Assembly (NCBI GenBank): GCA_009760855.2
Contig: WPIO01000224.1
Coordinates: 163,501-227,500, forward strand
Source: Cristatella mucedo
Taxonomy: Eukaryota; Bryozoa; Phylactolaemata; Cristatellidae
Reading direction: 5' to 3'
DNA length: 64,000 nt
Shown here one piece after another: positions 17,566-61,311 of the stretch. The position numbers and the translations under genes are program-made. A model generated the notes under the pieces. It saw only the letters and a program-made list of their open reading frames with translations. It made no database searches and was not told the origin of the DNA. Every line of letters begins with the position of its first letter. Positions within the stretch are counted from its first letter, which is position 1.

Positions 17566-17575
17566 TTTATTTATT
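17566..17575 (-). promoter_or_regulatory. Polyadenylation signals of the IgSF receptor gene
   Basis: Two overlapping AATAAA hexamers on the minus strand (17566-17571 and 17570-17575) lie about 63-72 nt past the receptor stop codon. This suggests a short 3' UTR and supports 17638-17920 as the last exon. Confidence 0.55.
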
Positions 17576-17637
17576 CGTGGCAAATTGTTAAATATGCAAT
17601 CTTAGCTGTGAAGTGATAACTAAAAGCTTTCAAAAAC

Positions 17638-17920
17638 TTAATGCTTTAAAAATTTCTTAGAAAGTTCGCGATACTCATGCGGGCCACATAATTCAGCTGA
17701 ATCGTGTTGAGGCTGCAATGATAGGTAAGCAACTTTTTTGGTAACGGCTTCCTGCTGATTGAGAAACACCATTTCATTTCCATTTGTTATCTCGGTTGAA
17801 TAATCTCTAATGTCTTCATATAGATGCTGGTTTTCCAGTTGTATTGGAAAATCTCCTTTGGAGAGTTTCTTTTGTTTTCGTGATGGCATCTCGGCAACGG
17901 CTGATTGACGTGGCTTGCTC
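17638..17920 (-). CDS. IgSF receptor, cytoplasmic tail exon with ITIM-like motifs and stop
   Basis: The exon is 283 nt, entering in phase 2 after the acceptor TAATTTTTCAG and ending at TAA (17638-17640). It codes 93 whole residues plus the shared arginine. The start is basic (SKPRQS, then RKQKK), fitting a juxtamembrane region. Four tyrosines follow: LYEDI, DYSTE, VAYLSL and EYREL. VAYLSL fits the ITIM pattern (I/V/L/S)xYxx(L/V/I). LYEDI and EYREL are YxxI/L motifs without the hydrophobic residue at -2. YLSL and YREL are separated by 14 residues, longer than a standard ITAM. When phosphorylated such motifs recruit SH2 proteins (SHP phosphatases or Syk-type kinases in vertebrates). They also fit the YxxPhi endocytic signal. 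An internal methionine (17889) could be misread as a start, but the frame is open upstream to the splice site. Confidence 0.75.
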
Positions 17921-19910
17921 CTGAAAAATTATCCGAATTATACGTAAAAGACAGGACAGTTCAATGTGACGATCTCAGTAGCTATATCTACGTACTCTTC
18001 AACTCAATTATAAATAACCCATCTTTTTAATTATGAAATGGCTCCTTATGATCGGCATGAATTCACCTATAATATATGTAAATATTATTTTTTCACAGAA
18101 TTGTTCTTAAGGCAAACTGAGTTCTGACGAGGCACTTCATCTACGCCGAAAAAGAAGCAAATTAATAACTAGGTGATTATAAGTATCCAAATGCTGAAGG
18201 TTACAGTCCATAAAAGATAACAGTATGTGACTAGAAAGTGATGGAGGTATATCGTGGGTCTTCAGTTAGCTTTAAATGGTACCACTGTGGGCTATCTTTT
18301 GGTACTATTTTGTAGTTCCATGCTGATACACAGAGAAACATAAGGCGTTGTTTTCAGAGCATTCCATGACTATCCTCGAATAATATATTTCAAGATTTGG
18401 GTATTTGGATAAAAGCTCAGAGAATAGTTTGCATATAAGTAAGAGAATGAATCTCAAATGGACTATCAAATCCCTTAAGTGATTGCTTGATAGTCATTTA
18501 ACCGTAAACTAATGCGGAAACTACAAAATTCATGAGAGGCAAACTTAGCTGCATATTTTTTCAAAACTTTAGGCATCCTATTGCAACATCAGGTAGAAAT
18601 TTAAGAACGAATATAAAATACATTAATTCGGGGATGTATTGCAAAAGGCATTTTAATTTGACTGAAGTTACTTTATCTAAGCATGAGGATTTAGTGGAAC
18701 TAATGCACCGTCTAATAAACGGCCATTTCATAGCTGGAAAGGCTAAGCAATGTCATGTAAGTGAGCAATTATAGGACGAGTATTTCAAGTTTGGTAATGG
18801 CACCAAGTTTTCACTGCTCGTTAAACGCTTGCATTTCATTATTTACATTCAACAGTGACCCCATCAGTAGAAGCTCTTTTCTAAATACAATAAGTTATGC
18901 GACTTACCACCTACTAAAATAACTAAATAGCTATTTCGGAAATTTGCGTGTTCGTTAAAGGTTAAACTAACTCAAATATTATAATAGATTTTACCATTTC
19001 AAAGTTTGGCATATGCACTCAGGTGCCGAAATTCCGTGCAGTATGGCCACTACAGTTGTGGCTATAAATGTTTAGGGTCATAAGAGGGTTTTATTTAATC
19101 ATAGGCACAGTAAAGTTACGGAAAACATATCAAATATGTATTTACCGTCTTCACTCGCCACTTCGCGCACCGACTTTTGCCGCTTCACTCTATCGTGGTT
19201 TTTTAAAATATGCATTCCATTAAAACGTTGATCGCGATAGTGAAAAGAATACAGTGCGTGCTCAATTTGTTTAGTCAATTATACATCCCTGTATTAAAAT
19301 TAAAATTTAAAAATTGAATTTCTGCACGTGTAGACGGTAGGCCCAAATATTCGAGTACCACACTAATCCTTCAACTCATGGTGCACTTCGCAGAAATTAC
19401 CTCGTTTCGTTAGATTCTGGGACTGATTAACCGCGATAAACGAGGGACGAATGCACAGCAAAAAATATGCACATATGCTGGTGGTAGGTATTTGTTCAGC
19501 GTGATGTTGCCCCACCACGATTTTATCTGACGAACCTTGTCTGGCCAGGCTTTGAGGCAGCAAGTTTCTCCATTTATTTTCTCCTCTGCTCCAATACGTT
19601 CAAATGAGCCTGAGTTTTACTGAAAATGTGGGTTACTGGTTAAGGTCAAATATCTTCTCTCAGCCACCTATCAATATCGCTCTATAATCGTTTGACGGGT
19701 TCCAAAAATGCAGCTGGCTGGGCCAGCCTCAAAAAAGGATTCGCCACAAAGCATTTCACCGGCCAATCAGTTGGCAAAGTTTATATATATTGCTGCCAAA
19801 CGTGACGATCCCCAAGCACAGTATTTGAGCATTGAAATTCAACTTGCATGCCCAAAAATAACTTGACTAAATTGTAATTGGTAATAGGGAAGTCACCTAG
19901 CCAATTGCCT
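17921..19910 (-). other. Receptor intron 5 (part), unassigned
   Basis: Lies between the microexon and the tail exon. No extra exon is required here because phases match directly. An ACTTAC (minus GTAAGT) at 18902 has no good acceptor partner. Confidence 0.45.
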
Positions 19911-19915
19911 TATTT

Positions 19916-21690
19916 TAATAATAATATATTGCACTTTATAAAGCGCCCTCAGAGAACTTAACCTCTTTCTAGGCGCTTTACATTTGCTGCAAAGTGATAT
20001 GCAATAGAATAGTAAGTAAAATCATGCTTGAAAAACAAACAAAATGAATAATATGGTTAAGGGTGACATGCACAGGGTCAGCATGCAAATGTGGTTAGTG
20101 GCAGCATGCACAGTGTCAGCACGCATAAGCACATCAAGGACGAATCACAGGGACCCACTAAATGCTGTCCTAAATAGGTGTATTTTTAAGTTTTTTTAAA
20201 TGTGGTCAGGTCAGGGGATGTTCTGACGCATGTCGGGAGGGAGTTCCAGGCTTTGGGAGCATACGAGCTAAATGCACGGTCTCCAAAGGATTTAAGGTTT
20301 GTACGAGGTATTTCTAGACTGTTGGATTCCGAAATGCGAGTGGTACGATGCTTGGCCTGATGGGGTAGTATAACTGAAAGATAGGCTGGAGCCATAGAAT
20401 GAAGAGACCTAAAAGTGAGCGACAAAACCTTGAAGTCAATCCGTTGCCTCACTGGTAGCCAGTGCAGGTCGGCGAGAAGTGGAGTAATGTGGCAACTGCG
20501 AAGCTCACGACAGACAAGCCTGACTGCAGAGTTTTGCACCAGCTGCAACCGCCTGATCGCACATGCTGGTAGGCCCGTAAGCAGTGAGTTGCAGAAGTCG
20601 AGACGGGATGTCACAAATGCATGGACCAACGTAGACGTGGTATCCTTATCTAAACAAGCCCGAATTTTAGAAATGTTATCAAGCTGAAAATAGGGAGATT
20701 TGACTGTGGAGCTGATGTGGTCGTCTAACGAGAGGTCGCTTTGGAATATGACACCTAGATTTCGAGCTGTTTCAACTGGAGATATGCTGGCAGAGCCAAT
20801 TTTTAAAGTCAGCCTTTCCAATTTCTGAATCACACTGGGTTTGCCCATAACTAGTAAGTTAGTTTTATCATCGTTTAGTTTTAGAAAATTTGCTGCCATC
20901 CATGTGCGGATGTCATCAATGCATGCAGCAAGTGAGTTGAGAGAATTTGAGGTGCTCGAAGGCTGGGAGGGATCAAGCAAAGGTACAACTGAGTGTCATC
21001 CGCATAGAAGTGAAAGCGTAGATTGTGCTTGGCAATCACATCAGCAAGAGGGAGAGTATAAACGGTGAAAAGGACCGGACCTAGCACAGAGCCCTGAGGT
21101 ACTCCATATTTTAGAGGTACTTCAGATGATCTTTGTCCATTCACGTCAATACTCTGGAGTCTCCCACTGAGATAGGACCTGAACCACTGCAGAGCAGTGC
21201 CAGTGATGCCCAGGCGAGATGAGAGGCGCTCTAGAAGTACTTTGTGATCGATGGTATCAAAAGCTGCCGAAAGATCGAGCAAAACAAGAAGAGACACTCT
21301 ACCCATGTCTGCATTCCTAAGTAGGTCGTTGTATACCCGAAGCAATGCTGACTCTGTGGAGTGATTAGCTCTAAAGCCAGACTGGAACTTACTAGCAAGG
21401 TGTGAGGTTTCGATATACGAGTTCAGCTGGTCTGCCACGACCCGTTCCAGTGTCTTTGATAGGAATGGTAGAAGGGAGACTGGGCGGTAGTTGCTTAAGT
21501 TCTCTTGGTCTAGTGTAGCTTTCTTGAGAAGTGGCCTGACTACAGCTTTTTTGAAAGGTGCTGGGACCTGACCTGAGGCTAATGACATATTAATGATGTT
21601 GGTTATGCATGGCAGCAGCAGATCAATGCAACGTAGGAGCAGGACAGTGGGAATAACCCTTTTGAAAGACTATGGAGTGATATCGACAGG
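19916..21690 (-). mobile_element. LINE1 reference copy, 5'-truncated, best preserved RT
   Basis: About 1.77 kb, reverse orientation, inside receptor intron 5. The 3' end at 19916 is a TAA repeat then GCGCCCTCAGAGAACTTAAC. The frame 21588-20881 holds RT motifs in order: NYRPVSLLPFLSKTLE, FQSGFRANHSTESALL, LLDLSAAFDTIDH, GVPQGSVLGPVLF and the catalytic FYADDTQLY. A frameshift near 20980 moves to the frame ending at 20186, which holds NDDKTNLLVMGK, LDFCNSLLTGLPACAI and NLKSFGDRAFSSYAPKAWNS. A second lesion ends it early in a T run. These motifs are those of the CR1/L2 group. The endonuclease part is absent through 5' truncation. Having only two lesions makes it the youngest copy in the window. 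Confidence 0.9.
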
Positions 21691-21699
21691 AAGCTGGGG

Positions 21700-22139
21700 C
21701 ACGGTGTTCGGCCTACACTAGTAATCTACCTTTTCGGTAAAATGCAGGCTGTGTGGAATTTGCTGCAGCAGAAGAGAAAAAACAGAAGAGACATAAGCAT
21801 GCGGTCTCTAAGCTTGACCTGACAAGTTTGGCTATTACGAATCGTCAAATGAAACTAAACGAATGCCTTTCACTCGTAAAAGGCAAATAAACCGGGAAGC
21901 AATGCTGGTCTAGGCAAGCATGTTTTTGCTACAATTAAAATGTGCTTACTTCAGTAGAAAGATTCTTTAGGCTTTCATCTAAACGTTCGCTATCATTTTG
22001 TATTTATTTTCATTAATCGGAGCATGACAACTGAAGGTGCTGCATCCGAACACTTGTGGGTGTTCAGATGCCAAGGTTTACCCCCATCATAATAAGTAAC
22101 AAGAGTATTTAGTAGAAGGATGAATAGCTTCTGAATAAG

Positions 22140-22140
<1 letters not shown>
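21700..22140. other. Unassigned intron sequence
   Basis: No gene or known repeat seen between the LINE1 copy and the TA microsatellite. Confidence 0.4.
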
Positions 22141-22142
<2 letters not shown>

Positions 22143-22207
<65 letters not shown>

Positions 22208-22245
22208 TTATATATTTATATATATATTTATATATGTATGTTTAT
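22143..22245. repeat. TA microsatellite
   Basis: An almost pure TA run to about 22199, then TATATTTA variants to 22245. Confidence 0.95.
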
Positions 22246-22524
22246 ATGACCTGCAGTGACTACCTAAATAGTTTTTAATTAAGAGTAAAATGCTCACAGT
22301 AACTACCTCGTCATTTAGCACAGGCTTTAAGTAACCCCCACTTTAGAACGTAAAGTACAAAGGCATGCACCAACCGTAGGGTAATTGCAGTGCTTATGCT
22401 GTGCATAACCATAAGACGTATCAACGCATCCGACGAAGAGATTGCACATCGAAAGTCCAAGCAGGTTTTGAAATGTTACCGATTACCAACAACTGCGTCG
22501 TCATTCTCGTAGTTACTTCCTGTA

Positions 22525-24215
22525 TGATATAATAATAATAATACCAAAAAATGCCCTCGGAGAACTGAATCTCTTTCTGGGCACTTTGTGTGTGTGGCAG
22601 AGGAAGCGTGGTCGAAAGGTTAGTGGTAGCATGCTCAAAGACTACAATCATGGCATGATTACATGCAAGTTAATGGTATCGACACATCCCCAGCATGCAT
22701 AAGCACACCAAGGAGAAATCACGTTCTGAAAAATTTATGTCTTTTTAGCTCCTTTTTTAAGTTTTGTAAAAGTCAGTGGAAGTCCTCAAGTTAGTCAGGA
22801 GTGACTTCCTGGATTTGGGATTATACCAAATAAAGAAACCATCTCCAAGGGATTTGAGGTCTTTAAGAGATATATTTAAACTATTTGATTAGGAATACCA
22901 CATTTTTCGATGCTTGACGTGGTGGAGGAGTGGATCTGATTGGTAAGCTAAAGCCAGAGAATAAAGGGGCGTAAAAGTAAGTGACAGAAATTTGAATCCG
23001 ATACGTTGCTTGATCGGGAGCCAGTGCAGACTGGTGAAAAGTGGTGTAGTGGGGCAACTTCAAAGCTCCCAACTGAAAAGCCTACGTGCAGAGCTTTGCA
23101 CCAACGGCAAATGCCTGAGTGCACAGGCCGGTAGACAAGCAAGCATGCTTTCCCAGAGTCAAGACAGAATGCCACAACAGCATGGATCAATTTAGATGTG
23201 GTATCCGTTTCCAAAAAAGCCAGGATTTTAACAACGTTGTGCAGCTGCCAGTAGGCAGACTTGACTGTGGAGTGGATGTTGTCATCTGATGAAAGGTCAC
23301 TTCGGAACAGACATGCAGATTCGTGCGCGTACAACGGGAGATATGCTGGCAGAGCTGATTTTGAGTGTTGCATTTTCCTATCTCCAACTCATACTTGATT
23401 TGCATATTACTAGAAAGCTATTTTATCGCAATGAAATTTAAAAATCTTTGCTGCCATTCATGTGTGGGATGTTATCAATACATGCAGCAAGGGAGTTGAG
23501 AGAATTTGACGTACTAGAAGGCTGGGAGGAATAAAATTAAGGTTACATCTGTGTGCAATTTGCGTATAATTGAAATCTTAGGTCGTCTCTGGCAGTCACA
23601 TTTGTAAGATGGAGAGTATAAACCATGAAAAGAACAGGACCAAGCAGGAAGCCCCGAGAGTCCTTAGTTACATGGTATTTCAGAGCCTCCTCAGATGATT
23701 TTTATCTATTCACATCAGTACTCTGGAATCTCCCACTGAGATAGGATCTGAACCGTTGTTTTGCGGTGCCAGTGATGCACAGGCGAGATGAGAAGCGCTC
23801 AAGAAGGACTTGGTGATCAATAGTATCACAAGCTGCCGAAATATGGAGCGAAACAAGTAGAGACACTCTACCCGTGTCTGCATCTCTAAGTAGGTCGTTA
23901 TACATCCGTAGCAATGCTGACTCTATGGAGTGATTAGCTCTAAAACCAGACTGGAATTTACTAGCAAGGTTCGAAGTTTCAATTTAAGAGTTCAGCTGGT
24001 CTGCCGTCACTCTTCCGGTATCTTTAATGTATCTTTAAATTGGAACGGTAGAAGGAAGACTGGGCGGCAGTTGCTCAAGTTGTCTTGGTCTACTGTTGCT
24101 TTCTCGAGTAATGGAATGACTACAGCCTTTTTGAAAGGTACTGGGACATGACCTGAGCTATTGAAATAGTACCGATGTTATTTGTGCATGGCAGCAGCAG
24201 ATCAATGTCGAAGCA
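22525..24215 (-). mobile_element. LINE1 copy, near full RT region, decayed
   Basis: A second long minus-strand copy, next to the reference copy and of similar extent. The 3' end is at 22525 (ATAATAATA, GCCCTCGGAGAACTGAATC). The frame 23702-23914 shows the RT start (LLRDADTGRVSLLVSLHIS) and 22948-23373 the C-terminal part. Many substitutions and stops make it much older than its neighbour. Confidence 0.8.
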
Positions 24216-24614
24216 GGACAGAAGGAATATCACAAAGTACTTGTCGTCTTCTTTAAAATGGGATGTGAACCTCAAGACTAGGTCACTAATGATCACCTTG
24301 AATGTAGCCACTGAGGTTCTGCTTACAGATGATAGACAGGATTTAGGAATGATGCTTCCATCTTAGGGACGGACTTCTTGTCTATCTTGCCTTTCTTGTC
24401 TATCTTGTTAGCAGAGAAGCTAGAGAACCGACCAGCTAGATTATCACAGGGATCACTAGGTAAGGAGCTAATCTGGGAGTGGTTAAGAGATGGTTGATAT
24501 TCTACGTAAACATTTTTGGATTGTGCATCTGTAATTCAGCAATTTGTTTATTTTTTATTGTCAATTTATTTTTATTCTTAATTTTTTATACTTTGTAATC
24601 GCATCTCTACCTGT

Positions 24615-25115: not shown

Positions 25116-25117
25116 CT

Positions 25118-25635: not shown

Positions 25636-25775
25636 TAAACAGCCTATCTTATGTTGCGATAGAATAGCCTTTGTGGCTATCGCTGCCTCTTAAAGCGGCA
25701 ATAAAGGATCGCCCACTGCAAGATATGAACCTGCCACAGAAAAGCAATCTAGTGTGCCATCAGGTTCTCTGAGGC
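25636..25775 (-). mobile_element. SINE-B copy, decayed
   Basis: Minus-strand match to SINE-B: GCCTTTGTGGCTATCGCTGC, AGCGGCAATAAAGGATCGCC and CACTGCAAGATATGAACCTG. Confidence 0.55.
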
Positions 25776-25779
25776 TGCG

Positions 25780-28934: not shown

Positions 28935-30110
28935 CTGCGAGATGCTTCGAGAATCCGGTGCATTTTTAGCTTTTGTGAGGTTCATTAATATAAGTTCACC
29001 AAGTTCGTTAGCCCGATGTAGTGGCTATCAATGCGCATGCATTCTGCCTGTAATAAGATCAAGTAGTAGTATTATGATGGTACAGCAAAATGAGAGTCAT
29101 TTTTTAAAACCGGTAAGGGGAAATAATTGTTTTATTTGCATATTTAAGTGGTACAGGCAATCTCATAGTTGACATTGGAACTTCCTTGCAACGCCTACCT
29201 TTGGTATGCTATGAATGAGCATAAAAATAATCTACACTAAATTCTTTAATGGCTTATTTATAAATTTGATTTTTAACGTGATTTTTTTTTTACTTACAAA
29301 TTCATTTGCACATGAAAACTTCAGATTTCTCCCGCCTTAGTGAACAAGCAAATTTTCACAGCAATGCATTTCACGACACAACAAGAATATAAGCTTACCT
29401 ATCGCAGACCACAACGAGAACAACAAGCTATAAAGGAGGCCACTCAGGACCTATCTGCCGAAACGCAACAAAATGTACCTGACAAACTCAACAAAAGCAA
29501 AATAATTACGTCGAAGCCCTCAATATTTGAGTTGTAGAACCTCTGCGAACTCTTAATTTACGGTGAGTTCAAAATCAATCATAGACTGAACAATAGATGC
29601 AGGCATTTCACTCCCCAAGTTAAAGTATTTAGTCAACGCCCAATGATCAGCCAGCCTCACCAGCAATGTTAGGTTTACAACTACGTCAGCAAACACTCAG
29701 GCCACGGGTGAAACGCAATACTTACATTTCCCAAGATTTTGCAGTGGCACATGCTCGCCCCTATAAAAATCTCTACCTTCTTACAGATAATAGGGATTTT
29801 AAAAATTATATTACTTCTTTTTTAATCTTATCAAGCCAGGCGATATCGCGACGCTAGTACGGTATGAGTACCAAGATTTAAAAACTTACAAACTACAAGT
29901 ACTTCCTAAACAGGGTCTAAGGTTTTTTCGACGCTTAGCTATACAATTTGAGCTATCTGTATTTCTATATGGGGAAGAAAACAATTATATTCACTCTGAA
30001 AGGGAATGTATTTGCATAGAATTTAAATGCAAACCTTCGTAGTTTAGCAATCTCTTAGACCATAAGAGAATGATGCACATCCACTACTGTTGACAACGCT
30101 TACAGTTGCC
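28935..30110. other. Unassigned intron 3 sequence
   Basis: Holds a plus frame at 29340-29537 rich in Q, K and T with no domain, and donor-like sites near 29294 and 29392 that could not be paired into an exon. Confidence 0.35.
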
Positions 30111-30117
30111 ACTCATA

Positions 30118-30345
30118 TGATAATAATAATAACATTTGCTATAGTGTCCTTTAGAATAACTCGATGCCTTTCTGGGCACTTTACACTGGCTGCAATGGAA
30201 GCTTGATTGAATGGTTAGTGGTAGCATGCTCAATGGCAACAGGTATAACATGGTTAGAAGCGACATGCACAGGATCAGCATGCAAATATGGTTCGCAGCA
30301 GCATGCACATGGTATATGCACTGTAAGGACAATTACCATGACTGA
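30118..30345 (-). mobile_element. LINE1 3' end
   Basis: ATAATAATAATAAC tail, then TTTCTGGGCACTTTACACTG and the GCATGC/GGTTAG blocks of the LINE1 3' UTR. Confidence 0.7.
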
Positions 30346-30714
30346 GTAACTGAAGTCGAAAGCGAGAGGCTGTAAGAGAAGCTGAAAGAAACTGTGCCTT
30401 GACACATGCCATTGCTAAATTAATTATGATTGTTTGCAATTAAAACAATTGAAACTTGTTTTATCCTTATGGAATGTTTATAATGTTTCATCAGTATGGA
30501 ATATTAACCAGTTTGTAATGCTTCAGCTTCGATCCCTAATAACTTCAAGACCGGCTTTATTATAGTCTGCATGTGGGAATGTGGTGCTTGTTTATGAAAA
30601 TGACGATCTAAGAAAGACATCAAAAACAGCCTATCAATGATCAGACGATCCTACTGCATAAGGATGGAGACTCACTCAGCCTGGGTTTTTCAGGCCGATC
30701 AGACTGCTGCTGAC

Positions 30715-31199
30715 GCTATATAAGCTCCTGTCGGTGGGCTTGGTAACTAGGCTTGTTGTTCACCTTCGTGTGGGAGGCTGGCTTTCTTTGCAGCAGAAGG
30801 GCTTTCTGCCAGGCGTCGACAGCGGCCTCCTTTCCAGGTCGAGGCAGCCTTTTTAGAATGGCCAATGATAATGGCACCGACTGCCGTTCTTTGTACACAG
30901 CCTTCGTAGACCTACAGAGTTCTTTCGGGAGCATGCAGTACTCGACTCTAATGCGTGCTCTGAGAAGCCTCGATGCGGCCCAGGTCTTCTGCAGGTTCGT
31001 AGAGCAGTTATACACCAATGCGATAACGGTGCCGCACTTGCAAGACCAAGATCTCGCGCTGTTTCACACAACGGTAGGCATTCGGAAGGATGATCCAATG
31101 TAGCTTATTAGGTTTGACATGGCCATTGAACCAATCGTTACATCGATCCTGAGCTTGATCTTGGCGCGTGTGGCCTTAGGCTTCCGATTGGTCTCGACG

Positions 31200-31262
<63 letters not shown>

Positions 31263-32410
31263 GCCGACAACCTAGCCATATTTGCTTCGTCACGGCATGA
31301 TCTTCAGGAGCTGGTCACTACAGTAGAGCAGCCCATCGACACTCTGGAAAATGCTCTCCTTCGGCCAGCTTGGAAAGTGACGTGTGACGGTAAGCGTTTG
31401 TCTGCATGGCACAGATATCCCCAGCCTGTTGCCTACCTCGGCAAACGGTGAGGTCTCGGCTACCGCAGGTGGACATGGTGAGGGCTTGCCAATCTCTCAC
31501 GAGGGATATCAATGCATTGCAGCCTTCTCTCCTTGCCCGCTGGCAGAAGCTTGACGCTATGAGTACGTCCTGCTGCCAGGGTTGACTGCTATGCCGGGTG
31601 AGGATGGTGCCGGCCAAGCTGCTTGCACCTACGAGTCTGCCGCCATGCGCCTGTGCGGAGACTCCTACTGCCTCCCCCAACGTTTATCTGTCCACTTTCC
31701 GTTCGCTCCCATGGCGGTGGGCTGGCTGGACCTGATGCTACTCTGGGTGAACGTATGGATCCTGCTGGTCACATAAGCTTTCCGGGTGCTCTGCTCCCTG
31801 GACCCACATTGTTCCCAGTGGTACGATTACGGCTTGACCGGGAGGCCGGAGCAATGGGAAAACTGGTTCCTGCCAACGTTAAGTGGTTGGCTGCTGAGGA
31901 ACAGTGTTCCGCTCATTTACGAGTCCGCCAGCAACCGCAATGGCTTTAGATCCTTGTGGGAAGACTCACGGAAGTGCCTGCGAAAGCTGTACTGTATCTT
32001 AAGGCTCTTTGTAGCCGAGCTGGGCATCACTCGCCGGGATAATGCCCTGGTTGACGTCATCTTCAAGCCACTGGGAATAGTTACGCTAGAGCTGCTTATG
32101 GAGGTCGTCTACTGGAGAACAGTAGGCTGCCTAGCTCAACCAGGGCTAAGTGTAGTGCCTACGCACCAACCACTAAGGCATGCACAGCCACTTCTTTCGC
32201 ATCGGCCTCAGGGTGTCGTTGAAGACCTGATGAATCGTTCATCGAGGCCACCTAAACCTGCTTGCAGTTCGTGAGGTGAGCTACCGATTTAAGTCCACCG
32301 CATGCCGTCGCTGCTCCACGGAAAGGGAGAGACTGCCGCATGTCTTCTTCAACTCATCTACGACGCCTGCTATCAGGGCCAGACTCAATCTGGTCCTAAA
32401 TCAGCTTTAT
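30715..32410 (+). mobile_element. R2/NeSL-like LINE relic (RT and zinc-finger region)
   Basis: This differs from LINE1 and LINE2 and is GC-richer than its surroundings. In order the frames show an AFVDLQSSFGSM patch, the place of the DxxxAFD/GS palm motif; GIRKDDPM, a decayed QGDP motif; LADNLAIFASS, the place of the catalytic ADDLAI with the second Asp now Asn; and near 32300 CRRCSTERERLPHVFFN, which resembles the Cx2C-H-C finger after RT in R2/NeSL elements with the last Cys lost. Stops and frameshifts occur after 31451. A TC microsatellite is inserted just before the catalytic motif. Clade assignment is by motif pattern only. Confidence 0.5.
31204..31262. repeat. TC microsatellite inside the R2-like relic
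   Basis: A 59-bp nearly pure TC run. It translates as Ser-Leu repeats on the plus strand and Arg-Glu on the minus, so long frames across it are artefacts. Confidence 0.95.
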
Positions 32411-39209: not shown

Positions 39210-41460
39210 ACTTGCAACTCCTGACCTTCCTTAAGATTTTCCGAAATCTCTGCGTGGAATGTGGCTAACTTATTAAAGTTTATTAAAATAGCTTATATAC
39301 TTAATACCCTATACCGTCCCCGTTGTGTTCTTCACAACTTCAGTTCATCCATAATCTATATTTGTAAAGCTTATCACGGTAACCGAGTTATTCCAGTCTT
39401 TTAAATTGGCCTTCATTTGACTCATTCTTTAAAAGTGAGAAAATGATTCCTAGAAAACTTTAGCCAAGTTATCCTGCTTCATTTGCTCGAAGATTCTTGG
39501 CAAGAATGTCCCTGTGCAGCTTGTAGCACAGATAGAAAATATGTAAATGTCAGAAGGAGTTTAACCGAGATTCAAATGATACGAATACACCGAAACTGCT
39601 CTCCGGTGTGTAACTAACAGCAGCCCACGTAGCAATGATATCAGGGATCTGACTGCCATCGTCCTGCAGAATCTCTCAACTTCCTTTCAACTAAACAATG
39701 TGATATTCTGTTGTGATGAAACGTGACTCGGGAACCTGCGAACACTCGATAGAGGTCCCACGAGAGACTGCCTAAGCAGCCTCTGGCTCTTGAGCAGTTT
39801 AGGGGATAACAGTGCCTCTCGGTGATTGACTCGGCAGTCTGGTACAAATCCGAGCATTGGCGGCATTTTTGGGACATCTATCTAGCACACACTGCCTCCA
39901 GCTGTTGGACAGGTACCGAACGAACAACTCAAAAAACAATACATGCATGGTATATAAGGGCAGTGGTAGGGGTACAGAGAGAAGGAAGAAAGTTGGATCT
40001 GTCAACTCGGCAGCCTCTAGAGTGCGTAGACTTGACCGGCACAGTTTCCGATAATAAAGTGCGTAATAAATAATGATATAAAAATGATAGATAATAAAAC
40101 GAAAGTAAAATAGAACAAAAATATGATAAATACTAGTGATGTAGGAGCCCAGAGACTTTTTTCTACCGCTGACGAGTCCCGCTAACCAGCCTGACTACAA
40201 GTCGTGTGGAAGGCTGTCACATCTACATATAAGATTGAAAACGACTTTTAGTCACGCAAGATGAGTCGATGGCATGGTTCAAAGTGTACTTAACCGAACA
40301 CGCTTATTCCTTGACCTATATTGGTTAAGTCCTATTTACTTAACCAGCCACCTGCGGAGTCTAACAAGGGTCTTTTGCTGATATGTTATTGTCTTGAACC
40401 AGTGGGTTAAGTTATTCGGCCCGTGGGATAGGCTATAACACCTGTGCTGACATTATTCAGCTTTAATTTTTGTTAAAACCAATGGAATAGGTTGCATAAA
40501 CAGTTCAACTTATTGCTGGCCTTGCCGACATTCGATCATAGATGTCGGTAAGATTTCTACCCTAAACGATAATAAAACCAAACTGCTACTTACTGGACAC
40601 CCCAAGTCTGTAGCTGCATTGGATAACTGCTTTTTGTAGAGGTCATCCTCTAGTGTGACCGTGATTATGTGGTCGGGATATCGTCTTTGAAAGCTGTCTT
40701 AATATTGAAAGATTCATTAGAAAGACTGCCTCAGTAGCTAGCGAGACAGTCCGATCTCTAGGAAAGATTGGAGACTGTCTACCATGATTGCCTGAGAAAC
40801 ATTTATCTAGTTCTTAGTTCCGTCTAGAATAGATTAATGCAAAACTATTTTGACTGGGGGACCGAAAACGTTATTGTGATCTGCAACCAGTTGTAAACAT
40901 AGCTGCAAGCTTGTTAACAAATCTTATTGATTCACAGGCGTCTCCTTGGCGAGAAGCTATAAGAGTTTAATTGTTTCTGGTTAAACAAAGGATACAGAGT
41001 CAAGTTATTATGCTAACCCACAAGGCGAGCTATGGCATGGCTTTTTCATACCTAGCTGAACTTCTGAACTCGCTACCCCGTCAGTACTACTATGGACAAT
41101 TAATTAGCCGTTCTATTCCTACGCTTGCATATCGTTGACAGAGCTTTAGCCCCGCAGATCCTAGACTTCGGGACTTACTTAGACAATTCCATGGGCCAAG
41201 ATATCTATTCCTGTGCTGCTGACTCTTACAGTTTCTTTACAGCCATCGGGAGCTGCTACTTCAGCGATGCTAACTTCCGTATCTGACTTTGCTACATTTC
41301 ACTTTTTCTCTCTTTATCATTAGGTTAAATCTGCTGGCTAACACACACATACCGAAAGCCGCTTATGCGTAGGTGAGCTATACGAAACTCTCCTTTGTAA
41401 CAACCACTCAGTCTTTAGAAATGTGTGCCATGGTGGAGTTACTGGCGGTGAATAAATGAT
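39210..41460 (+). mobile_element. LINE2 copy split by a solo LTR
   Basis: The left part (39210-39711) matches the LINE2 copy at 25118-25635 from CTGACCTTCCTTAAG through to the position of GATGTTCTAC. The right part resumes at 40222 with TCTACATATAAGATTG, matching TTCTACTTAAAAGATTG in that copy. It then continues through an MAWFKVYL-like patch, NDNKTKLLLTGHPKS near 40570, and the 3' block CCGAAAGCCGCTTATGCG at 41352. No intact frame remains. Confidence 0.7.
39712..40221 (+). mobile_element. Probable solo LTR, about 510 bp, nested in LINE2
   Basis: It begins TGTGATG and ends CTGTCACA, giving a 5-bp terminal inverted repeat TGTGA/TCACA. It contains a TATA box (TATATAAGG near 39950) and AATAAA signals near 40053 and 40067, in LTR order. 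The flanks are TCTGT on the left and TCTAC on the right. Removing the element and one flank restores the LINE2 sequence seen at 25.6 kb, so the flanks look like a 5-bp target duplication with later changes. There are no internal retroelement genes. Confidence 0.55.
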
Positions 41461-43675: not shown

Positions 43676-43820
43676 GAGCCGGTTTAATCCAGTGGTTAAG
43701 GTGCTCGCCCCGAACCAAGGTATGGCTGAGGTCGTGGGCTCGAGCAGTGAGGCGTATGTGAAGCACCTGAATAGAGATTAAGTTCTCTTGGGGCGTTATG
43801 CAAATGAATTATATAATATT
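43676..43820 (+). mobile_element. SINE-A copy
   Basis: Head GCCGGTTTAATCCAGTGGTT with a decayed A box, then GGTGCTCGCC. The tail AGAGATTAAGTTCTCTTGGG and GCAAATGAATTAT is shared with LINE1. Confidence 0.8.
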
Positions 43821-48243: not shown

Positions 48244-48405
48244 CGCCGAGCTGGTTTGGTCCAGCGGTTAAGGTGCTCGCCCGACCAAGGTCTGGCTGAG
48301 GTCGTGGGCAGTAGCTCGAGCCCCGAGGCATATGTGAAGGACCTGAATAGAGATCAAGTTCTCTTGGGGCGCTATATAAATGAATTATATATATTATAAT
48401 GGCAT
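48244..48405 (+). mobile_element. SINE-A copy
   Basis: Complete copy with A box TGGTCCAGCGG at 48257-48267 and a B-box region widened by a small insertion (GGGCAGTAGCTCGAGCC). The LINE1-like tail is AGAGATCAAGTTCTCTTGGG, then GCGCTATATAAATGAATTAT. Confidence 0.88.
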
Positions 48406-50144: not shown

Positions 50145-50290
50145 TCGGTTTGGTCCAGCGGTTAAGGTGCTCGCCCCCCCCCCCCGACCAAGGTCTGACT
50201 GAGGTCGAGGGTTCGAGCCCGGAGGCATATGTGAAGAGCCTGAATAGAGATTAAGTTTTCTTTGGGCGCTAACAAATGAATTATATATCC
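50145..50290 (+). mobile_element. SINE-A copy with perfect B box
   Basis: A box TGGTCCAGCGG near 50152-50162 and B box GGTTCGAGCCC at 50210-50220, followed by AGAGATTAAGTTTTCTTTGG and GCGCTAACAAATGAATTAT. A run of 12 C at 50174-50185 is a slippage expansion. Confidence 0.88.
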
Positions 50291-53270: not shown

Positions 53271-53274
53271 CTCT

Positions 53275-54615
53275 TTCAAGATGAAACTACTCTCTATATG
53301 TATAAACCTAATTATTTAACGCATAATGTGAAATGCTAACTAAATTGAAAGAGTTTTACATTTACAGCACCAAATTTTGACGGTGCAAGAAAGTAATGGC
53401 AGTTTCTGAGTTAAATAATGTTTATGAACAAGATTTTTCATAATATATTGCTTAAACGTATTGAGGAACGTATTATTGGATGTTCGTATTTTCAACGTCG
53501 TGTTGATTCAGTACACATTAACCTAACTTTCTCTTTCGAATAGGCATCTCATCATTAATGACACGGACTTGCAATAAAAGTATGGACAGTCTTGAATACT
53601 GACATTCAATAGTATATCTGCATCTATAGTACCAATATGCCTTCTGCGGCTTACCAAATGTGACGCGCTGAGCTATTTTCCCATTAATAATAGTTAATAT
53701 GTAAAAACTACTACTTGTTAGTTTTTAAGGATGTGGTTGAGGCCAGGGGCATTAGAAAAGGAACCGTTACATAGCTTTCAGAGGTACCTCTAAACCTGTG
53801 CATTCGGCAGTCCGTACTGTGCCAAGGTGCACACTTAGCTTTGAGAAATTAAGGTTTTTGCTTCTTAAGGCCAAATGAGCTGAGACGTTCCCATTGATCT
53901 CAATCTGCAGTGAAGGGCTTTTACAGAAACCCTTTAGGCCCATCACGGTTTCTTTTACTTACCCGTATAAGGTGAAACTCCAGTTTTATCATTTCTTGCT
54001 CTTGAAGTCTTTAAAGACACTCAATAGCTTCTCTTTTCATATCTAAATTTTTCTTATAAATGTTCAACTCTGTCACACAAGCTTTAGCTCTGTTTGCCGT
54101 AGACTGTGAAACTCATTTCCACTATTGGTACAACCCTGCCACAGACTCACGTATACTTTTGAGTGGTTCTGAGCTGCCGCTTTCAGCAGTAAGCATTTTA
54201 AGTTAGCAGTATAAGGCTCAGTAATGCATGACAGAGTATTTTTTTACTTTGAGAAAGTGCATCCATTTAAACTTGCATGCATAAAATCTATATACAATTT
54301 TTTATTTTGGCTTTTAAATCAAAATCTTTATTTTCGCATCATACTATTGTCTGTTTGTGTTATTGTAAACTAAACTCTAAGCGGCTGTGGGGTTGACGTT
54401 TCGCTGTGATATAAATTAGGCTGTTCTATTTCTACCTATTAAGATACACCTATCTGATTGACAAAATACGACAGGTAAGGATTTTCATTTGTCTATTATC
54501 ACCCACACAGCAACCTTGTGCAAAAATTAAGTAATATATTAGAATAATTTATAAAACCCTTCAAATTTGTTACTACTGAGTTAAGGAGATACCGGCTATG
54601 AATTCAAGCCAGTCA
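53275..54615. other. Unassigned intron 2 sequence
   Basis: No exon or family repeat recognised. Confidence 0.35.
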
Positions 54616-54708
54616 TACTTTTGCAACGGAGCAGCTCTCAGGCTAGCCGCGATATTAGCCCTTGCCTTAGTGGGTCTGACTAGGGCACCTATAGCCACCG
54701 TAGCGGGT

Positions 54709-54967
54709 GGACTAGCCAAGGACTAGCCAAGGACTAGCCAAGGACTAGCCAAGGACTAGCCAAGGACTAGCCAAGGACTAGCCAAGGACTAGCCAAGGAC
54801 TAGCCAAGGACTAGCCAAGGACTAGCCAAGGACTAGCCAAGGACTAGCCAAGGACTAGCCAAGGACTAGCCAAGGACTAGCCAAGGACTAGCCAAGGACT
54901 AGCCAAGGACTAGCCAAGGACTAGCCAAGGACTAGCCAAGGACTAGCCAAGGACTAGCCAAGGACTA
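54709..54967. repeat. 11-bp minisatellite, 23.5 units
   Basis: Unit GGACTAGCCAA, all units identical by reading, within U3 of the solo LTR. About 1.5 further units follow the inserted LINE1 tail at 55091-55107. Confidence 0.95.
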
Positions 54968-55091
54968 ATAATAATAATAATAATAATGCACTTGATAAAG
55001 CGCCCTCAGAGAACTTAATCTCTTTCTAGGCGCTTTGCATTTGCTGCAAAGTGAAATGCAATTGAATGGTGAGTAAAATCATGCTTGAAAA
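54968..55091 (-). mobile_element. LINE1 3' end nested in the minisatellite
   Basis: ATAATAATA tail, then AAGCGCCCTCAGAGAACTTA and TTTGCTGCAAAGTGAAATGC. It is nearly the same as the 3' end of the reference copy at 19.9 kb, including the CATGCTTGAAAA end, so it is recent. AGCCAAGGACTA lies on both sides. Confidence 0.85.
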
Positions 55092-55183
55092 GCCAAGGAC
55101 TAGCCAAGAAGAATCAGGCCGAGGACGGACACCGAGAGCTGGGGTCCGACACACACAATAACAGCTACGCCCAAGGTCAAGAG

Positions 55184-55185
<2 letters not shown>

Positions 55186-55220
<35 letters not shown>
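55186..55220. repeat. GA microsatellite next to the LTR TATA box
   Basis: A 35-bp GA run directly upstream of TATAAAACG. Confidence 0.9.
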
Positions 55221-55223
<3 letters not shown>

Positions 55224-55669
55224 AAAACGACAGGACTGACAGAGCTCAGGGCTGTAGCTTCGGTAGTCGATGCGAGACTACGCATCGAGAGCACGAGAGA
55301 CAAACCTACGGCGACGAACAGCTAAGTGCAACTTGGACTGCGTAGTTGTGTTCTGCCGGCTACTCAGTTAGCTGCTCGTATCTTGGGGTGCTGTAGCGGC
55401 CCGCCTTCGGGGTTGGGACAATCGCTAGCGTCGCGCGTATAGGGTAGTTGGTTATACTCGGGCTTCGGAAGTTTGCACAGTTAACTCCGTCGGTCCGGTG
55501 CGCGCCGCGTATGGCGCTTGCGCCGGCGCGTAACCACTACTAACAGGCCCACAATAAACTGTTGCTTTCGGTGCCCAGTTGTGGCCGCCTGTGTTTTAAC
55601 CGCACCGCAGCACTGCATCACACAGTCCATCAGTAGAGAGCCGGGGAACGAGCTTCTGCGCGGTTACAC

Positions 55670-56220
55670 TTTTACTGAAAGTCACTTTTCCTTAGATTAG
55701 GCAATGAATGTGGTTGATTCTAGGACCACAAAAAACTCGTATGTCTTTAATGATACTAATTGTCGTTAAAACTCTTAAATCATTAATGCTCTCCTTTAAA
55801 ATTCAGTTTCAAAATTCGTTGAATATTCAATTCGTGAAGACTAGAATGCATCTCAGTGAGCGCAAGCAATAACTAGGAGTTAAAATTATTCTTTATCTTA
55901 TTATTTGAGAACTCCTTTTATTTTCGCTTTGAGAAACTTTTTATAGTTTCCGCCAAAAGTAGATGAGTATTCACATCCTTAGATTACAAGCTTTTTGTAA
56001 GTAACGCTTTCAGATTGAGATCTGTGGTACAAACAATTCCTAAAATCTCACTAAAAATATAGAAATGGTTGCATACCTTTGACCGCGAAAATGCATACAA
56101 AGTGATATCTCTGTGCCTATAAAGCACATGCGGTAGCATTTTGCTTGTTAAAAATGTAAATATATAATGCAAGTTTTGGATTTTAAGGAACCACTTTTTA
56201 TCATAGAAGAAAAGTTTTTA
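55670..56220. other. Receptor intron 2 start, unassigned
   Basis: AT-rich sequence just downstream of the domain 2 donor. No repeat recognised. Confidence 0.4.
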
Positions 56221-56225
56221 CTTAC

Positions 56226-56504
56226 GGTTGATGATAATTTTCTTATGAATAATCAAATATGGTAATGGGTGGTTTAATACTATGCACTTCACGGTAGCCT
56301 GATGGTAGTCCCATGATATGTTCCTTTCAATTGCAACGAAATCAGTTCCAACGGCAGATTGATTCAAGCCGGTTATATGATTGGTGATTTGAAGCATCAG
56401 ATCCGGTGCTGGACGTCCTTTGACAGCTGAACAATTGATTCTCAAGGTGGCAGATTGGTTGAATGCAAGCTCCTCTGGGTATATTCTTAGACTCTCTGGT
56501 GCGA
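56226..56504 (-). CDS. IgSF receptor, Ig domain 2 exon (C2-like)
   Basis: The exon is 279 nt (93 residues), phase 1-1. The acceptor is TTTTAATTCAG before TCGCACC, and the donor is CAACC|GTAAGT. The domain starts with APES, has the B-strand cysteine in LRINC and the F-strand cysteine in ATVKC, 49 residues apart. NQS (twice), NCS and NIS are likely glycosylation sites. The C-strand tryptophan is replaced by a leucine-rich strand, and a tryptophan appears later in NISWDYH. The YHQATVKC strand resembles C2-type domains of the nectin/Kirrel kind, though that comparison is only by eye. The exon has the same length and cysteine spacing as the next one (45317-45595), with roughly 40-45 identical residues of 92 by hand count, which points to an exon duplication. 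Confidence 0.82.
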
Positions 56505-56809
56505 CTGAATTAAAACAAATCTTTGCATAATCATTTTTCTATAACCAATATCAGCACTATTTGCTAATGTATGGTACTAAAAAACTACTTGATCTGTTTA
56601 AAACGAGCATTATTATTACCTTATGAACATGCTAACATAAACAATAGACACAAAATAAAGAAATATATTTATTAGCACTGGTCAAGACAAATAAACCGTT
56701 TTCTTGGTATTAATAAAGCATACGAAATGGTGCTTGTCAAATGTTTGAGGTTGCATTCACAGAGTGCGGTTTAAAAATTCAGTTTTTAAGCTACAGCAGC
56801 AGATTCTGA

Positions 56810-57320
56810 CTGCTTAAATGACAAATAGAGCTCAGTATCATTGGCATAAAAGTGAAAGCGGATTTAATGGACTCAAATCACTTTTCCCAGAGGTTAAGTG
56901 TGACTTGATAATAGCAACCTACCGAGAACGGATCCTTGTGGGACTCCAAAGATGACTGGCCTAGTAGATTAGACCTGACCCCCCCCCACTACATAGGTTG
57001 AACACGATCCGATAATTGTGACTCGAACCATGTAATAGCATTATCCGTTAGACCAATCGTTTTCCTTAATCGTTCAATTTTGATATCGTGATCAATTGTG
57101 TCGAAGGCAGCTGATAACTCAAGCAGCACTAGGACAGTGCTATTTCCACCATTGTTGCTTTATTTGCAGGAGGGCACTGTCAGTGTAGTAGTGTCGCTTG
57201 ATTCCCCACTAAAATTTGTCTGACAATTCATACTCTTCGGTGTGCGCTACGTGAAAAAAGAAGGGAACGTTGGCGATTGTTTGCTAGGACCTCTGATTCT
57301 AATCCAGGCTTTTTAAGTAT
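56810..57320 (-). mobile_element. LINE2 fragment, RT catalytic region, decayed
   Basis: On the minus strand: a TTTCACTTTTATGCCAATGA region (YADD place), the GGAGTCCCACAAGGATCCGT palm region, and TTCGACACAATTGATCACGA (FDTIDH). It ends where a LINE1 fragment of opposite direction begins. Confidence 0.7.
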
Positions 57321-57344
57321 AGGTCTAAAGATGGCCGATTTGAA

Positions 57345-57564
57345 TTACCTTGCAAGTACTGTGCATGCTGCCACTAACCACATTTGCATGCTGACCCTGT
57401 GCCTGTCACCCCTAACCATATTATTCATTTCGTTTGTTTTTTCAAGCATGATTTTACTTACCATTCAATTGTATTTCACTTTACAGCAAATGTAAAGCGC
57501 CTAGAGAGAGATTAAGTTCTCTGAGGGCGCTTTATCAAGTGAATTATTATTATTATTATTATTA
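57345..57564 (+). mobile_element. LINE1 3' end with ATT tail
   Basis: GCATGCTGCCACTAACCACA, TGTCACCCCTAACCATATTA, then AGCGCCTAGAGAGAGATTAA, GGGCGCTTTATCAAGTGAAT and an ATT repeat. Confidence 0.85.
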
Positions 57565-57569
57565 AGTAA

Positions 57570-58045
57570 CCCCGTTTTTCAGAGAAGCATTAAAAATCTC
57601 AGTGATGAAGTTCATCTGCCACTAAAGACCGCCGATTTGATGGTCAAATCTTGTTATTAGACATTCTTATTTTACTAGATTTTGATAGGGTGATCACATC
57701 GCTTGCGCAAACCTCTGCAAATGTCTTAAGGAAGGTCGCATTCTGCGACTTAACAGTAACTTAAGTCAAAAGTGGCTTTATGGAAGCGCGAATGGGGGTA
57801 CCTTTTTCAGTTAAAAAGGCTTGATACTTATCGGCCGAGCCGCTAATATATGAAGAGTGAGACCCCTAAGGATTGGCTAGAAAAATTTTAACCGTATCCA
57901 AAATCTATTTTGTCTGACTAGCAGGACTTCAGTTTTCTAGTGAAAAAATAAGCCATGGTTTTTTAGCTTCCGAAGATAGACTCAGGAAAAGTCTATAAAG
58001 TTAGATCGTCATTAAATTCAGACTTTTTAAGGCTGCTTTCAAGTC
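57570..58045. other. Unassigned intron 1 sequence
   Basis: A CAGAGAAGCATTAAAAATCT block may continue LINE2, but this is not clear. Confidence 0.35.
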
Positions 58046-58049
58046 ATCG

Positions 58050-59245
58050 TTTAATATGGCGCATTGTCTTGAAGTTTTATTGCGAATTTGAAACAATCTC
58101 CGTAACTCTGTACACGGACAGAATGTACGGAAGCATACTCGTCAAGGGCACCCCTAAGAGTAACGTTCACTCATCGATAAGAGTAGCGAGGCTGTTGATC
58201 GAGTCTGGGTTGAGATTAAGAAGACTTGCCTCACAGATAGATTTGAAAAATTTTCCTACTCAATGCTTTTTAGTTTCGTTTCTTAAAAAACTCGACATAA
58301 CCATTCACGTAAAATCAAAAAGGAACAGTAAAGATACAAAGCTGTAATCCTAAATGATCAGCGGGAATGCTACACGGTCAGTGGGGCAGGCATCCTCGTT
58401 ATAAAGATATCTAGGATATGGTTAGCGACGTGAGTAGATCAAACCGAGGTTCTCGAAAGAAATGAGCGAACCTGGCTGTCTCTGGGATTTTCAAGGTAAT
58501 TTTAAAGTCTCATGCAATCTGTAGCGGCCTTTAAAACGCAAGTGTTTTAGTGAGGAACTCCAAAAACCTGTAAACAAGTTTAGACAACCGTAAGTATGTC
58601 AGTAGATCACAACTGTGAGATTTGTGGGATTTGGAGGTGATTGCAAGCAATTTAAACAATGGCACGTGCGAAAAACCGCAGATCTTATAGCCAAACGATT
58701 CAAGAAAAATAATAGCAACCTATCCACCAATTGTATCCGATTGCATAGACTAAAAAAGGAAAAACCGGCTGTGATGTTGTCAGGCAACAGCCAATGTAGC
58801 CGGGCGTCATCCGCATCTCGATCACCAGAAATGCATCTAGCCTCTCTTGGAATGACTGATCGTGGATAAGTAACCCGTTCATTTTAGTGAGCGGACATTT
58901 AACAGGCAGAGTTTGAGAGTTTTTTTCAATGACTCCATGACGCCGAATAAGTGGCTTGCATGCTAGGCGGTATGTAACCGGCCCGGTAGACCATGGGCTA
59001 ATTTAAGCAAATTTAAATGGAATCTTAGTAACGGCCGACGATTGACTTTTCACACCATGCTGATCTGAGACAAGCCCATAGATTTGTCTGCAGACGATAT
59101 CGAACCTCATGCTGAGCAGGTCCTGTTTTGAGTAGTATATCCGAGGACAGATCATGAACAGAAACTGTGAAGATATCAGCGGATTACCCTAAAGTGTTAC
59201 GTAGAAGTCCGGTAGAGGTTCAAACTATGCTTGTTCGTCAGAGGC
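58050..59245 (+). repeat. Repeat U copy 2 (longest)
   Basis: About 1.2 kb, related over its second half to 35315-36350 and over its first 250 bp to 43318-43540 and 52260-52470. A plus frame at 58069-58347 is open but has no recognised domain. Terminal repeats were not found, so its class is open. Confidence 0.55.
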
Positions 59246-59629
59246 CGCTCTCTAGCGCGAGGAGGAATGAACATCTTAGGAGCGACTAACCCATCTACAA
59301 AGGTTCGAGATGTAGGCAAGGGTGAATGTTCATTGCTGATGCATAATAAACTTCCTTGGCATAAGAAGCTAGGATTAAGGTATCTTGCTAGTAATGCAAT
59401 AATATTGTATTGGTTCCGTTAGCGATTAGCATACTTTCTGTATTTTCAGCTCCATCAGAGAGCTAGTCTGTGCATGTTTAATATGTAGCAAGCGAGTTGC
59501 TTGGTTATGTTAGCTTCATAGTTTCACATGGGATACTGCATACTTGGTTTAATAATAAGAAATATATAGATAAGTTTATTAATTTTACTTAACATAAAAA
59601 TTTTGACTTTAGGTCCTTACTAGATCAAA

Positions 59630-60213
59630 ATCGGTCCACGTGTTTGTGACATTCCGTCTCGACTTCTGTAACTCACTGCATGCTGGTTTACCGGCCTATG
59701 CAATCGAGCGCTTCCAATTGGTGAAACACTCTGCATTCAGGCTTGTTTGCCGTGAGTGTCGCAGTTGCAACATCACGCCACTTCTCGCCAACCTTTGCTG
59801 GCTCTCTGTCAAACAGGGCATCGACTCAAGGTACGAACCTCGAATGCTTTCAGGACCGTGCCGTTCATTCGTATATTCCAAAAGCCTGGAACTCACTTCC
59901 GGATGGCGTCACGGCATCCCTGACTTAAAGACTTTCTAAAAGAAGCTAAATCGCATCTATTTATCACAGCACTTATGAGGTCCGTGTTATTTTTTGTTGG
60001 TTTGCCGATGCGTGCTGACAATATGCATGCAGCCACTAACCATGTCTGCATGCTGACTCTATGCACGTCACACCTAACCATGTTATGCTTGTTGACGTTG
60101 AGCACGCTACCATTACACATTCCATCATACTTCCTTTACAGCAAATGTAAAGTGCCTAGAAAGAGAATTATATTTAAGTTCTCTGAAGGCGTCATACAAA
60201 TTTATTATTATTA
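59630..60213 (+). mobile_element. LINE1 3' part
   Basis: VTFRLDFCNSLHAGLPAYAI, RLVCRECRSCNITPLLANLC and the RFAFSS-like place, then the 3' UTR and CTAGAAAGAGAATTATATTT with TATTATTATT tail. Confidence 0.8.
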
Positions 60214-60219
60214 TTTCTA

Positions 60220-60950
60220 AGTCTCTCAAGCTGCTTTCTGAGCTATATTTTAAGAATTATAGTGTTCTTAACATTAACACATTCTATATGTTAACGATAA
60301 AAATGGGTCATATTTAAAACAGACAAAAAATATTAATCGTGTGCTGTCCTGAAGGATAATTGCTATACCACTCGGCGCCCTTTGCGAACCCTGTGTATCT
60401 CGGGGTGTTTCGTAACTTACAGTGAGAGAATGAGAACGCGGTGAAATGACTGGATGCTGAATAGCAGGTGGTTCAAGAGCTTAATTAAATAGTGAATATG
60501 CCAGAGAGGTTGGCAGCAGTTTGCAATTAAAGTGACGCATGCCAGACTAAGGACATTCAAATTGATTAAATGCTCTTTTATGAAGCCGTGAAGCTCAGCT
60601 AGAAGCGAGACGGTGCGGCAGCTAAGCTACTTGCGACCGAACAAACTGCTGAGTTGAGTACCTTGAGTCGCTGAGCTGAGTACGGTTTCCAAAGCAATTA
60701 ATTTCCTCAGACTGGTGGGGTTGTTTCCTTATGGTAGACGTCTAAGTCATTAGATTGTAAAACATTAAGCTTTAGCCTTTAAGCTCAGTAATAAAATCAG
60801 CATAAAAATTAAGTATGCGTAAATATTATTAGTCGCCTTACAGCACCAGCAAAGCTTCAATGCTCACTATAAGGCAGAGTGTTTAAACTAAGTGTTTTCG
60901 TACTAAATAAGTTAACGGTTAAAGAAGCTCTCTAATCCGCTATTTAAATA
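60220..60950. other. Receptor intron 1 (5' part), unassigned
   Basis: No exon or family repeat recognised. Confidence 0.4.
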
Positions 60951-60957
60951 TACTTAC

Positions 60958-61311
60958 TGCGTACCGACAACGCAATTACTTTGGTTTCATCTCCAACCAT
61001 TGTTCCATCTTCTACCGCATAGACAGACGAGCAGGTGTAGTTAGCCTCCAGAAGACTTGTTGTTTGTATTGAAAACGTTACATTAGTTATATAGCCATAG
61101 CATCCAAATATATCCACTCTGCCTGAGAATCTTTTCTGGTCGAAGTTGGATACTTTTCTAGGAATCGCACATTGCACTTGGCTTACAATTTCAGTCTGCT
61201 TGTAAGCTGTCAGTGTCATGGTAGTGACACCTTTCCTGGGAGTAAAGCATGTAAACATTGTCCGGCTTCCAACGTACGGTGTCAAAGGATTTATGTAAAT
61301 ATCCACAGATC
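60958..61311 (-). CDS. IgSF receptor, Ig domain 1 exon (V-set-like)
   Basis: The exon is 354 nt, phase 1 at both ends. The acceptor reads GGTTTTAG before GATCTG, and the donor is the strong GCA|GTAAGT. It codes about 118 residues. The B-strand cysteine is in TMFTC and the F-strand cysteine in EANYTC, 72 residues apart, which is V-set spacing. An RFSGR stretch resembles the C''/D edge of V domains. Two extra cysteines (VQC and FGC) lie between them and could form a second disulphide. The usual C-strand tryptophan is absent. N-glycosylation sites NVT and NYT are present. It is the most N-terminal domain found, and in many IgSF receptors the distal V domain binds ligand. Being bounded by phase-1 introns is typical of Ig-domain exons. 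No signal peptide is attached, so at least one upstream exon is needed. Confidence 0.8.

Follow-up and report, generated by a model that had tools for sequence, protein, structure and literature searches.

Exons of a predicted immunoglobulin-superfamily receptor with a tyrosine-motif tail in repeat-rich DNA of the bryozoan Cristatella mucedo

We analyzed a stretch of 64,000 nucleotides from the bryozoan Cristatella mucedo (contig WPIO01000224.1, positions 163,501 to 227,500; here referred to as the window and numbered from its first letter) and identified on its minus strand six exons that appear to form the 3' part of a gene, with one or more exons missing at the 5' end. The encoded protein is read as a type I membrane receptor of the immunoglobulin superfamily (IgSF) from an invertebrate, ordinary in kind and likely inhibitory in action, and we place the probability of this reading, 5' incompleteness included, at roughly 0.6. 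The gene escapes detection by open-reading-frame length, its roughly 1.6 kb of coding sequence being scattered across 44 kb that is rich in repeats, and it illustrates cleanly how a receptor gene is missed when length alone is used. As it stands, this is a gene annotation and not a new kind of system, since the kind is already known. If the receptor is expressed on immune cells, it would be one more invertebrate IgSF receptor carrying an immunoreceptor tyrosine-based inhibitory motif (ITIM) and would bear on the age of tyrosine-based inhibitory signaling.

The exon borders were rederived from the window sequence, and the resulting gene model is as follows.

61311 to 60958, minus strand: exon 1, 354 nt, phase 1 in and phase 1 out, putative distal domain D1
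56504 to 56226, minus strand: exon 2, 279 nt, phase 1/1, predicted Ig-like domain D2
45595 to 45317, minus strand: exon 3, 279 nt, phase 1/1, predicted Ig-like domain D3, a duplicate of D2
27456 to 27079, minus strand: exon 4, 378 nt, phase 1/1, predicted membrane-proximal Ig domain D4, stalk and transmembrane helix
27078 to 26965, minus strand: intron 4, 114 nt
26964 to 26943, minus strand: exon 5, a 22-nt microexon, phase 1 to phase 2, predicted basic stop-transfer stretch
17920 to 17638, minus strand: exon 6, 283 nt, ending in TAA, predicted cytoplasmic tail with YEDI, YLSL (in the ITIM VAYLSL) and YREL
17575 to 17570 and 17571 to 17566, minus strand: two overlapping AATAAA sequences, candidate polyadenylation signal

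Four of the five junctions have the donor GTAAGT and one has GTATGT, and all acceptors end in AG. The junction phases (1, 1, 1, 1 and 2) are mutually compatible, and the joined frame is free of stops for 530 residues before it ends at TAA. In order, the introns measure 4,453, 10,630, 17,860, 114 and 9,022 nt. A first-pass annotation of the window had proposed these six exons, five junctions and phases, all of which were reproduced, and the six-exon model is confirmed as a sound, real piece of a host gene.

We also scanned the window for exons with a rule that contained no knowledge of Ig domains and called for a donor, a pyrimidine-rich acceptor, phase 1/1, an open frame and a set length (for example, open phase-1/1 exons of 270 to 400 nt with a GTAAGT donor). 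Four settings were used, and the null consisted of 60 second-order Markov strings and the reversed string. At two settings, the only donor ends found on the minus strand were 60958, 56226, 45317 and 27079, which are those of the four domain exons, whereas the simulated strings averaged 0.017 and 0.033 per strand (maximum, 1) and the reversed string yielded none. At the two looser settings, 5 and 12 ends came up on the minus strand, compared with averages of 0.07 and 0.73 in the simulations and with 1 and 2 ends in the reversed string. Of the eight extra ends, five lay in matches to long interspersed nuclear elements (LINEs), a candidate ending at 11691 overlapped one, and those at 39891 and 36025 lay outside LINE sequence. 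On the plus strand, all four settings gave no ends. Another setting, used earlier, returned the exact borders of exons 2, 3 and 4 and gave exon 1 the acceptor 61230 instead of 61311, where the pyrimidine tract is weak; it also returned 11987 to 11691, against a null of two matches in 40 simulated strands, and this candidate was dropped because it overlaps LINE remnants. The thresholds were picked after the exons had been seen, so that the scan is a strong but not a blind test.

Exons 2 and 3 are one domain that was duplicated and has been under purifying selection since. D2 and D3 are of equal exon length and share 43 of 92 residues without a gap, while their DNA is 60% identical, with 35, 27 and 48 mismatches at the three codon positions over 92 codons. 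The nonsynonymous divergence dN is 0.42, compared with a synonymous divergence dS of 1.52 that is near saturation (pS, 0.65). This conservation at the protein level since the duplication indicates that exons 2 and 3 are coding.

The Ig assignment draws on curated profiles. With D2 to D4 joined, Pfam returned Ig_2 at 31.8 bits (cut-off, 27) and ig at 26.9 bits (cut-off, 21.8), with C2-set_2 matching alongside ig; with all 530 residues, ig remained above its cut-off (26.4 bits) and Ig_2 fell below (25.9 bits). When D4 was left out and D1 to D3 were submitted, three Ig families ranked first, all below cut-off (best, ig at E = 5.6e-4), and two single domains gave matches under cut-off: D2 to C2-set_2 (E = 0.014) and D4 to Ig_2 (E = 0.00069). 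D1 has a V-like cysteine spacing (C21 to C93, with extra cysteines C47 and C70), and its 12 matches among Protein Data Bank (PDB) sequences were all antibody light chains, the best at E = 0.024. The whole protein matched 17 PDB sequences at E ≤ 10 (best E = 0.03), namely, 14 antibody light chains, two members of the carcinoembryonic antigen (CEA) family called CEACAMs and one calcium channel. The exon 4 protein had seven PDB matches, led by CEA (E = 0.0025) and including two CEACAMs (E = 0.064 and 0.094), and a D2/D3 profile had one, which we read as chance. Sequons and paired cysteines are present in the receptor protein. Of the domain claims in the first-pass annotation, the Ig domains are thus upheld by profiles on D2 to D4 together, and the evidence for a V-like D1 is limited to cysteine spacing and weak light-chain matches.

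After the Ig-like domains comes a single strong hydrophobic helix, at about residues 409 to 429 of the joined protein, with a Kyte-Doolittle score of 2.69 over 19 residues (residue 411); the next best value elsewhere is 1.21. The predicted tail is 101 residues long and has four tyrosines, in YEDI, YSTE, YLSL (inside VAYLSL) and YREL. The ITIM consensus used here is (S/I/V/L)xYxx(I/V/L), to which one motif (VAYLSL) conforms, and three of the four tyrosines are in YxxPhi motifs. The single membrane helix and tyrosine-motif tail that had been claimed are therefore present, although the motif content of the tail is only mildly above chance: among shuffled tails, 3.0% had at least three YxxPhi motifs and 1.5% had both these and at least one ITIM.

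Together, these features support an IgSF receptor that crosses the membrane once, carries tyrosine motifs in its tail and is probably inhibitory in role. Its ectodomain would consist of four Ig-like domains, each encoded by a single exon of phase 1/1, and the single helix would anchor the receptor, with the 22-nt exon supplying the basic stop-transfer stretch. In the tail, which would come from a separate terminal exon, the tyrosines of YEDI, YLSL and YREL would be phosphorylated and bind SH2 proteins. Most likely, ligand binding at D1 would then lead the ITIM VAYLSL to recruit an SH2 phosphatase, and cell activation would be damped, for example, on a phagocyte. The sequence itself shows the exon borders and phases, the open frame, the D2/D3 duplication under purifying selection, the Ig profile matches, the helix and the motifs; we infer that the gene is transcribed, that the receptor sits at the surface and binds a ligand, that its tail is phosphorylated and inhibits, and in which cells it does so.

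Several results weigh against this receptor reading. An ITIM in such a tail is not unusual, since 15% of the shuffled tails contained at least one. Neither D1 nor D3 alone matched any Ig family in Pfam, and hhalign found no match between D2/D3 and either D4 or D1. The single-sequence structure model of D1 was unusable (predicted local distance difference test [pLDDT] score, 38). A D2 model built from two sequences scored 77 and was taken as unreliable; it had no Foldseek match at E ≤ 0.001, its best-ranked fold-search rows were GOLD, collagen-binding, carbohydrate-binding, toxin and capsid sandwiches, and no Ig domain was among the 50 best rows of either fold-search program. The fold search on this model thus does not favor an Ig reading of D2, and, with no significant match, structure neither supports nor contradicts it. 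Relatives of D2/D3 or D1 were absent from viral_contigs. Finally, two scans of the 2,689 nt upstream (61312 to 64000, minus strand) found no signal-peptide-like first exon: the first listed seven frames that open with ATG and include a hydrophobic stretch, but a phase-1 donor was lacking in every one, and the second gave no candidates, compared with a simulation mean of 0.07. The earlier reading of a complete gene consequently fails, and the gene is 5' incomplete in the window. Every other long intron measures more than 4 kb, and no such exon was found in these 2,689 nt, which most likely places the first exon outside the window.

The same gene could instead encode mainly an adhesion or guidance molecule, with the YxxPhi motifs serving endocytosis or, in the case of YEDI, docking of Src-type SH2 domains and not inhibition. 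We consider this unlikely but deserving of serious weight. The tail has three YxxPhi motifs and only one consensus ITIM, the CEA and CEACAM matches of the exon 4 protein amount to a weak resemblance to CEA-type adhesion Ig domains, and a plan of Ig domains, membrane segment and tail is common in adhesion molecules. However, a V-like distal domain combined with an ITIM-type motif is more usual in immune-type receptors, and Pfam found no fibronectin type III domain, which is usual in guidance IgSF proteins. It is very unlikely that the exons belong to two or more separate genes, or to a decaying gene, and line up by accident. Such an accident would be helped by the four introns of 4 to 18 kb, 17 to 49% of which is repeat by a minimal count, and by a 5' end that was not seen; against it, all five junctions are phase compatible, the domain exons are intact and stop free, the frame ends at a TAA with AATAAA close by, and D2 and D3 have been under purifying selection since their duplication.

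Two further alternatives concern self/non-self recognition. In one, the gene would belong to a polymorphic allorecognition family and work like Hydractinia Alr or Botryllus FcoR. The order of V-like domain, C2-like domains, helix and ITIM/YxxPhi tail is similar in the portions of the sources used here, but no sushi domain was found in the exons or in 10 of 15 intron 1 frames, and the window yielded no second paralogous gene; we regard this as improbable. Slightly more doubtful still is a splice-switched invertebrate self/non-self receptor locus, in which one gene would give inhibitory, silent and shortened forms. As read from the sequence, retention of intron 4 would bring a stop two codons after the helix and leave a tail-less form, and, if exon 5 were skipped, the tail would give way to one of 44 residues that lacks any YxxPhi motif. 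Exons 2 and 3 can each be dropped in frame because both are 279 nt long and in phase 1/1.

Comparison with known systems leaves the preferred reading, an ordinary inhibitory-type IgSF receptor, without a name. Many animal receptors have an architecture of Ig domains, helix and tail, and the first-pass annotation was right to make no claim of orthology. ITAMs (immunoreceptor tyrosine-based activation motifs) have two YxxL/I motifs 6 to 12 residues apart, whereas the YxxPhi motifs here are 27 and 14 residues apart and so lack ITAM spacing. The literature comparisons that follow refer to parts of each source. CgIgIT2 of Crassostrea gigas likewise has several Ig domains, one helix and a tyrosine-motif tail, but with five Ig domains and an ITAM, in contrast to the four domains and absence of ITAM spacing found here (PMC11999971). 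CgSiglec-1 of the same species, a named Siglec homologue consisting of Ig domains only, is also an invertebrate Ig-domain protein, with two I-set domains compared to four Ig-like domains here when set side by side by description; its blockade with antibody raised apoptosis and phagocytosis, as expected for an inhibitory receptor, and the mammalian Siglec plan of V-set domain, C2-set domains and ITIMs is the plan suggested here (PMC5877582).

Botryllus FcoR is a protein of 520 to 610 residues with a V-type and two C2-type domains, a sushi domain, a helix and a long tail with an ITIM or core YxxI/L/V motifs, and it shows splice variation near the membrane (PMC12065747). It resembles the present protein in the order of V-like domain, C2-like domains, helix and ITIM/YxxPhi tail and differs in its sushi domain (PMC12065747), of which Pfam saw none in the joined protein at E ≤ 5 or in those intron 1 frames at E ≤ 1, although an exon overlooked elsewhere could still encode one. 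Hydractinia Alr proteins, also compared by description, have IgSF domains, with ITIM- and ITAM-type motifs reported on candidate members, but form a 41-gene family, in contrast to the one gene found here. Gastropod fibrinogen-related proteins (FREPs) share invertebrate IgSF domains, for which custom profiles were built in that study, but are secreted and carry a fibrinogen domain, unlike the membrane helix here (PMC7588048); Pfam found no fibrinogen family at E ≤ 5, and the present protein ends in helix and tail. Snail PTC2 genes were rejected as relatives, having no known domain besides a transmembrane segment in the part of the report used (PMC7494358). The literature search returned no named match among ITIM or IgSF receptors of molluscs and other invertebrates, which is no proof of absence. 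As for vertebrate paired receptors, the CpG observed/expected ratio of 0.73 over the window (0.61 to 0.82 in 8-kb pieces) is not vertebrate-like and argues against vertebrate DNA, the vertebrate value being general background, and the window yielded no partner gene.

Within the window, we searched for further exons, paralogues and partner genes by tblastn with five exon proteins (the 22-nt exon being omitted) and by phmmer with exons 1, 4 and 6 plus the D2/D3 profile over 1,551 open frames, and found no Ig exon, paralogue or partner beyond the six exons. The best stray match, of exon 4 at 8 to 145 on the plus strand (tblastn E = 0.006), runs through a stop and was rejected. Intron 1 has 15 minus-strand frames of at least 40 residues, and in the 10 of these submitted to Pfam no sushi or other domain came out above cut-off. 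The prokaryote library NCBIfam gave no match for the five exon proteins, and the window contained no tRNAs and no Rfam matches at gathering scores.

Repeats or LINE coding remnants cover at least 21,107 of the 64,000 bases, so the earlier description "retroelement-filled" is fair, and none of these bases lies within the six exons. Intron 2 contains a perfect 11-bp minisatellite (54709 to 54967; 23.5 copies, 100% match). Exon 2 is flanked by an inverted repeat (54966 to 55096 and 57434 to 57564) with 131-nt arms that are 94% complementary. These arms could favor skipping or circularization of exon 2, the loss of which would keep the frame. A family resembling short interspersed nuclear elements (43708 to 43798, 48284 to 48374 and 50181 to 50271) has, by eye, a possible tRNA-type B box and a tail like that of other dispersed repeats. 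Four repeat DNA strings were looked for in the literature, and no paper was found to contain them. A G+C-rich patch at 30700 to 32300 (0.49 in 30001 to 32000) has overlapping open frames on both strands; three of its frames gave nothing above the Pfam cut-off, and one recalls, by eye, a different non-LTR (non-long-terminal-repeat) reverse transcriptase. Intron 5 holds a LINE remnant on the minus strand (20186 to 21669) with RVT_1 in the frame 20884 to 21669 (E = 1.2e-27), and shorter LINE remnants are numerous on both strands of the window. The window LINE reverse transcriptase had no match in viral_contigs and is 54% identical to one on contig PIVJ01000154.1 of a Bacteroidetes metagenome-assembled genome, where it is probably animal contamination.

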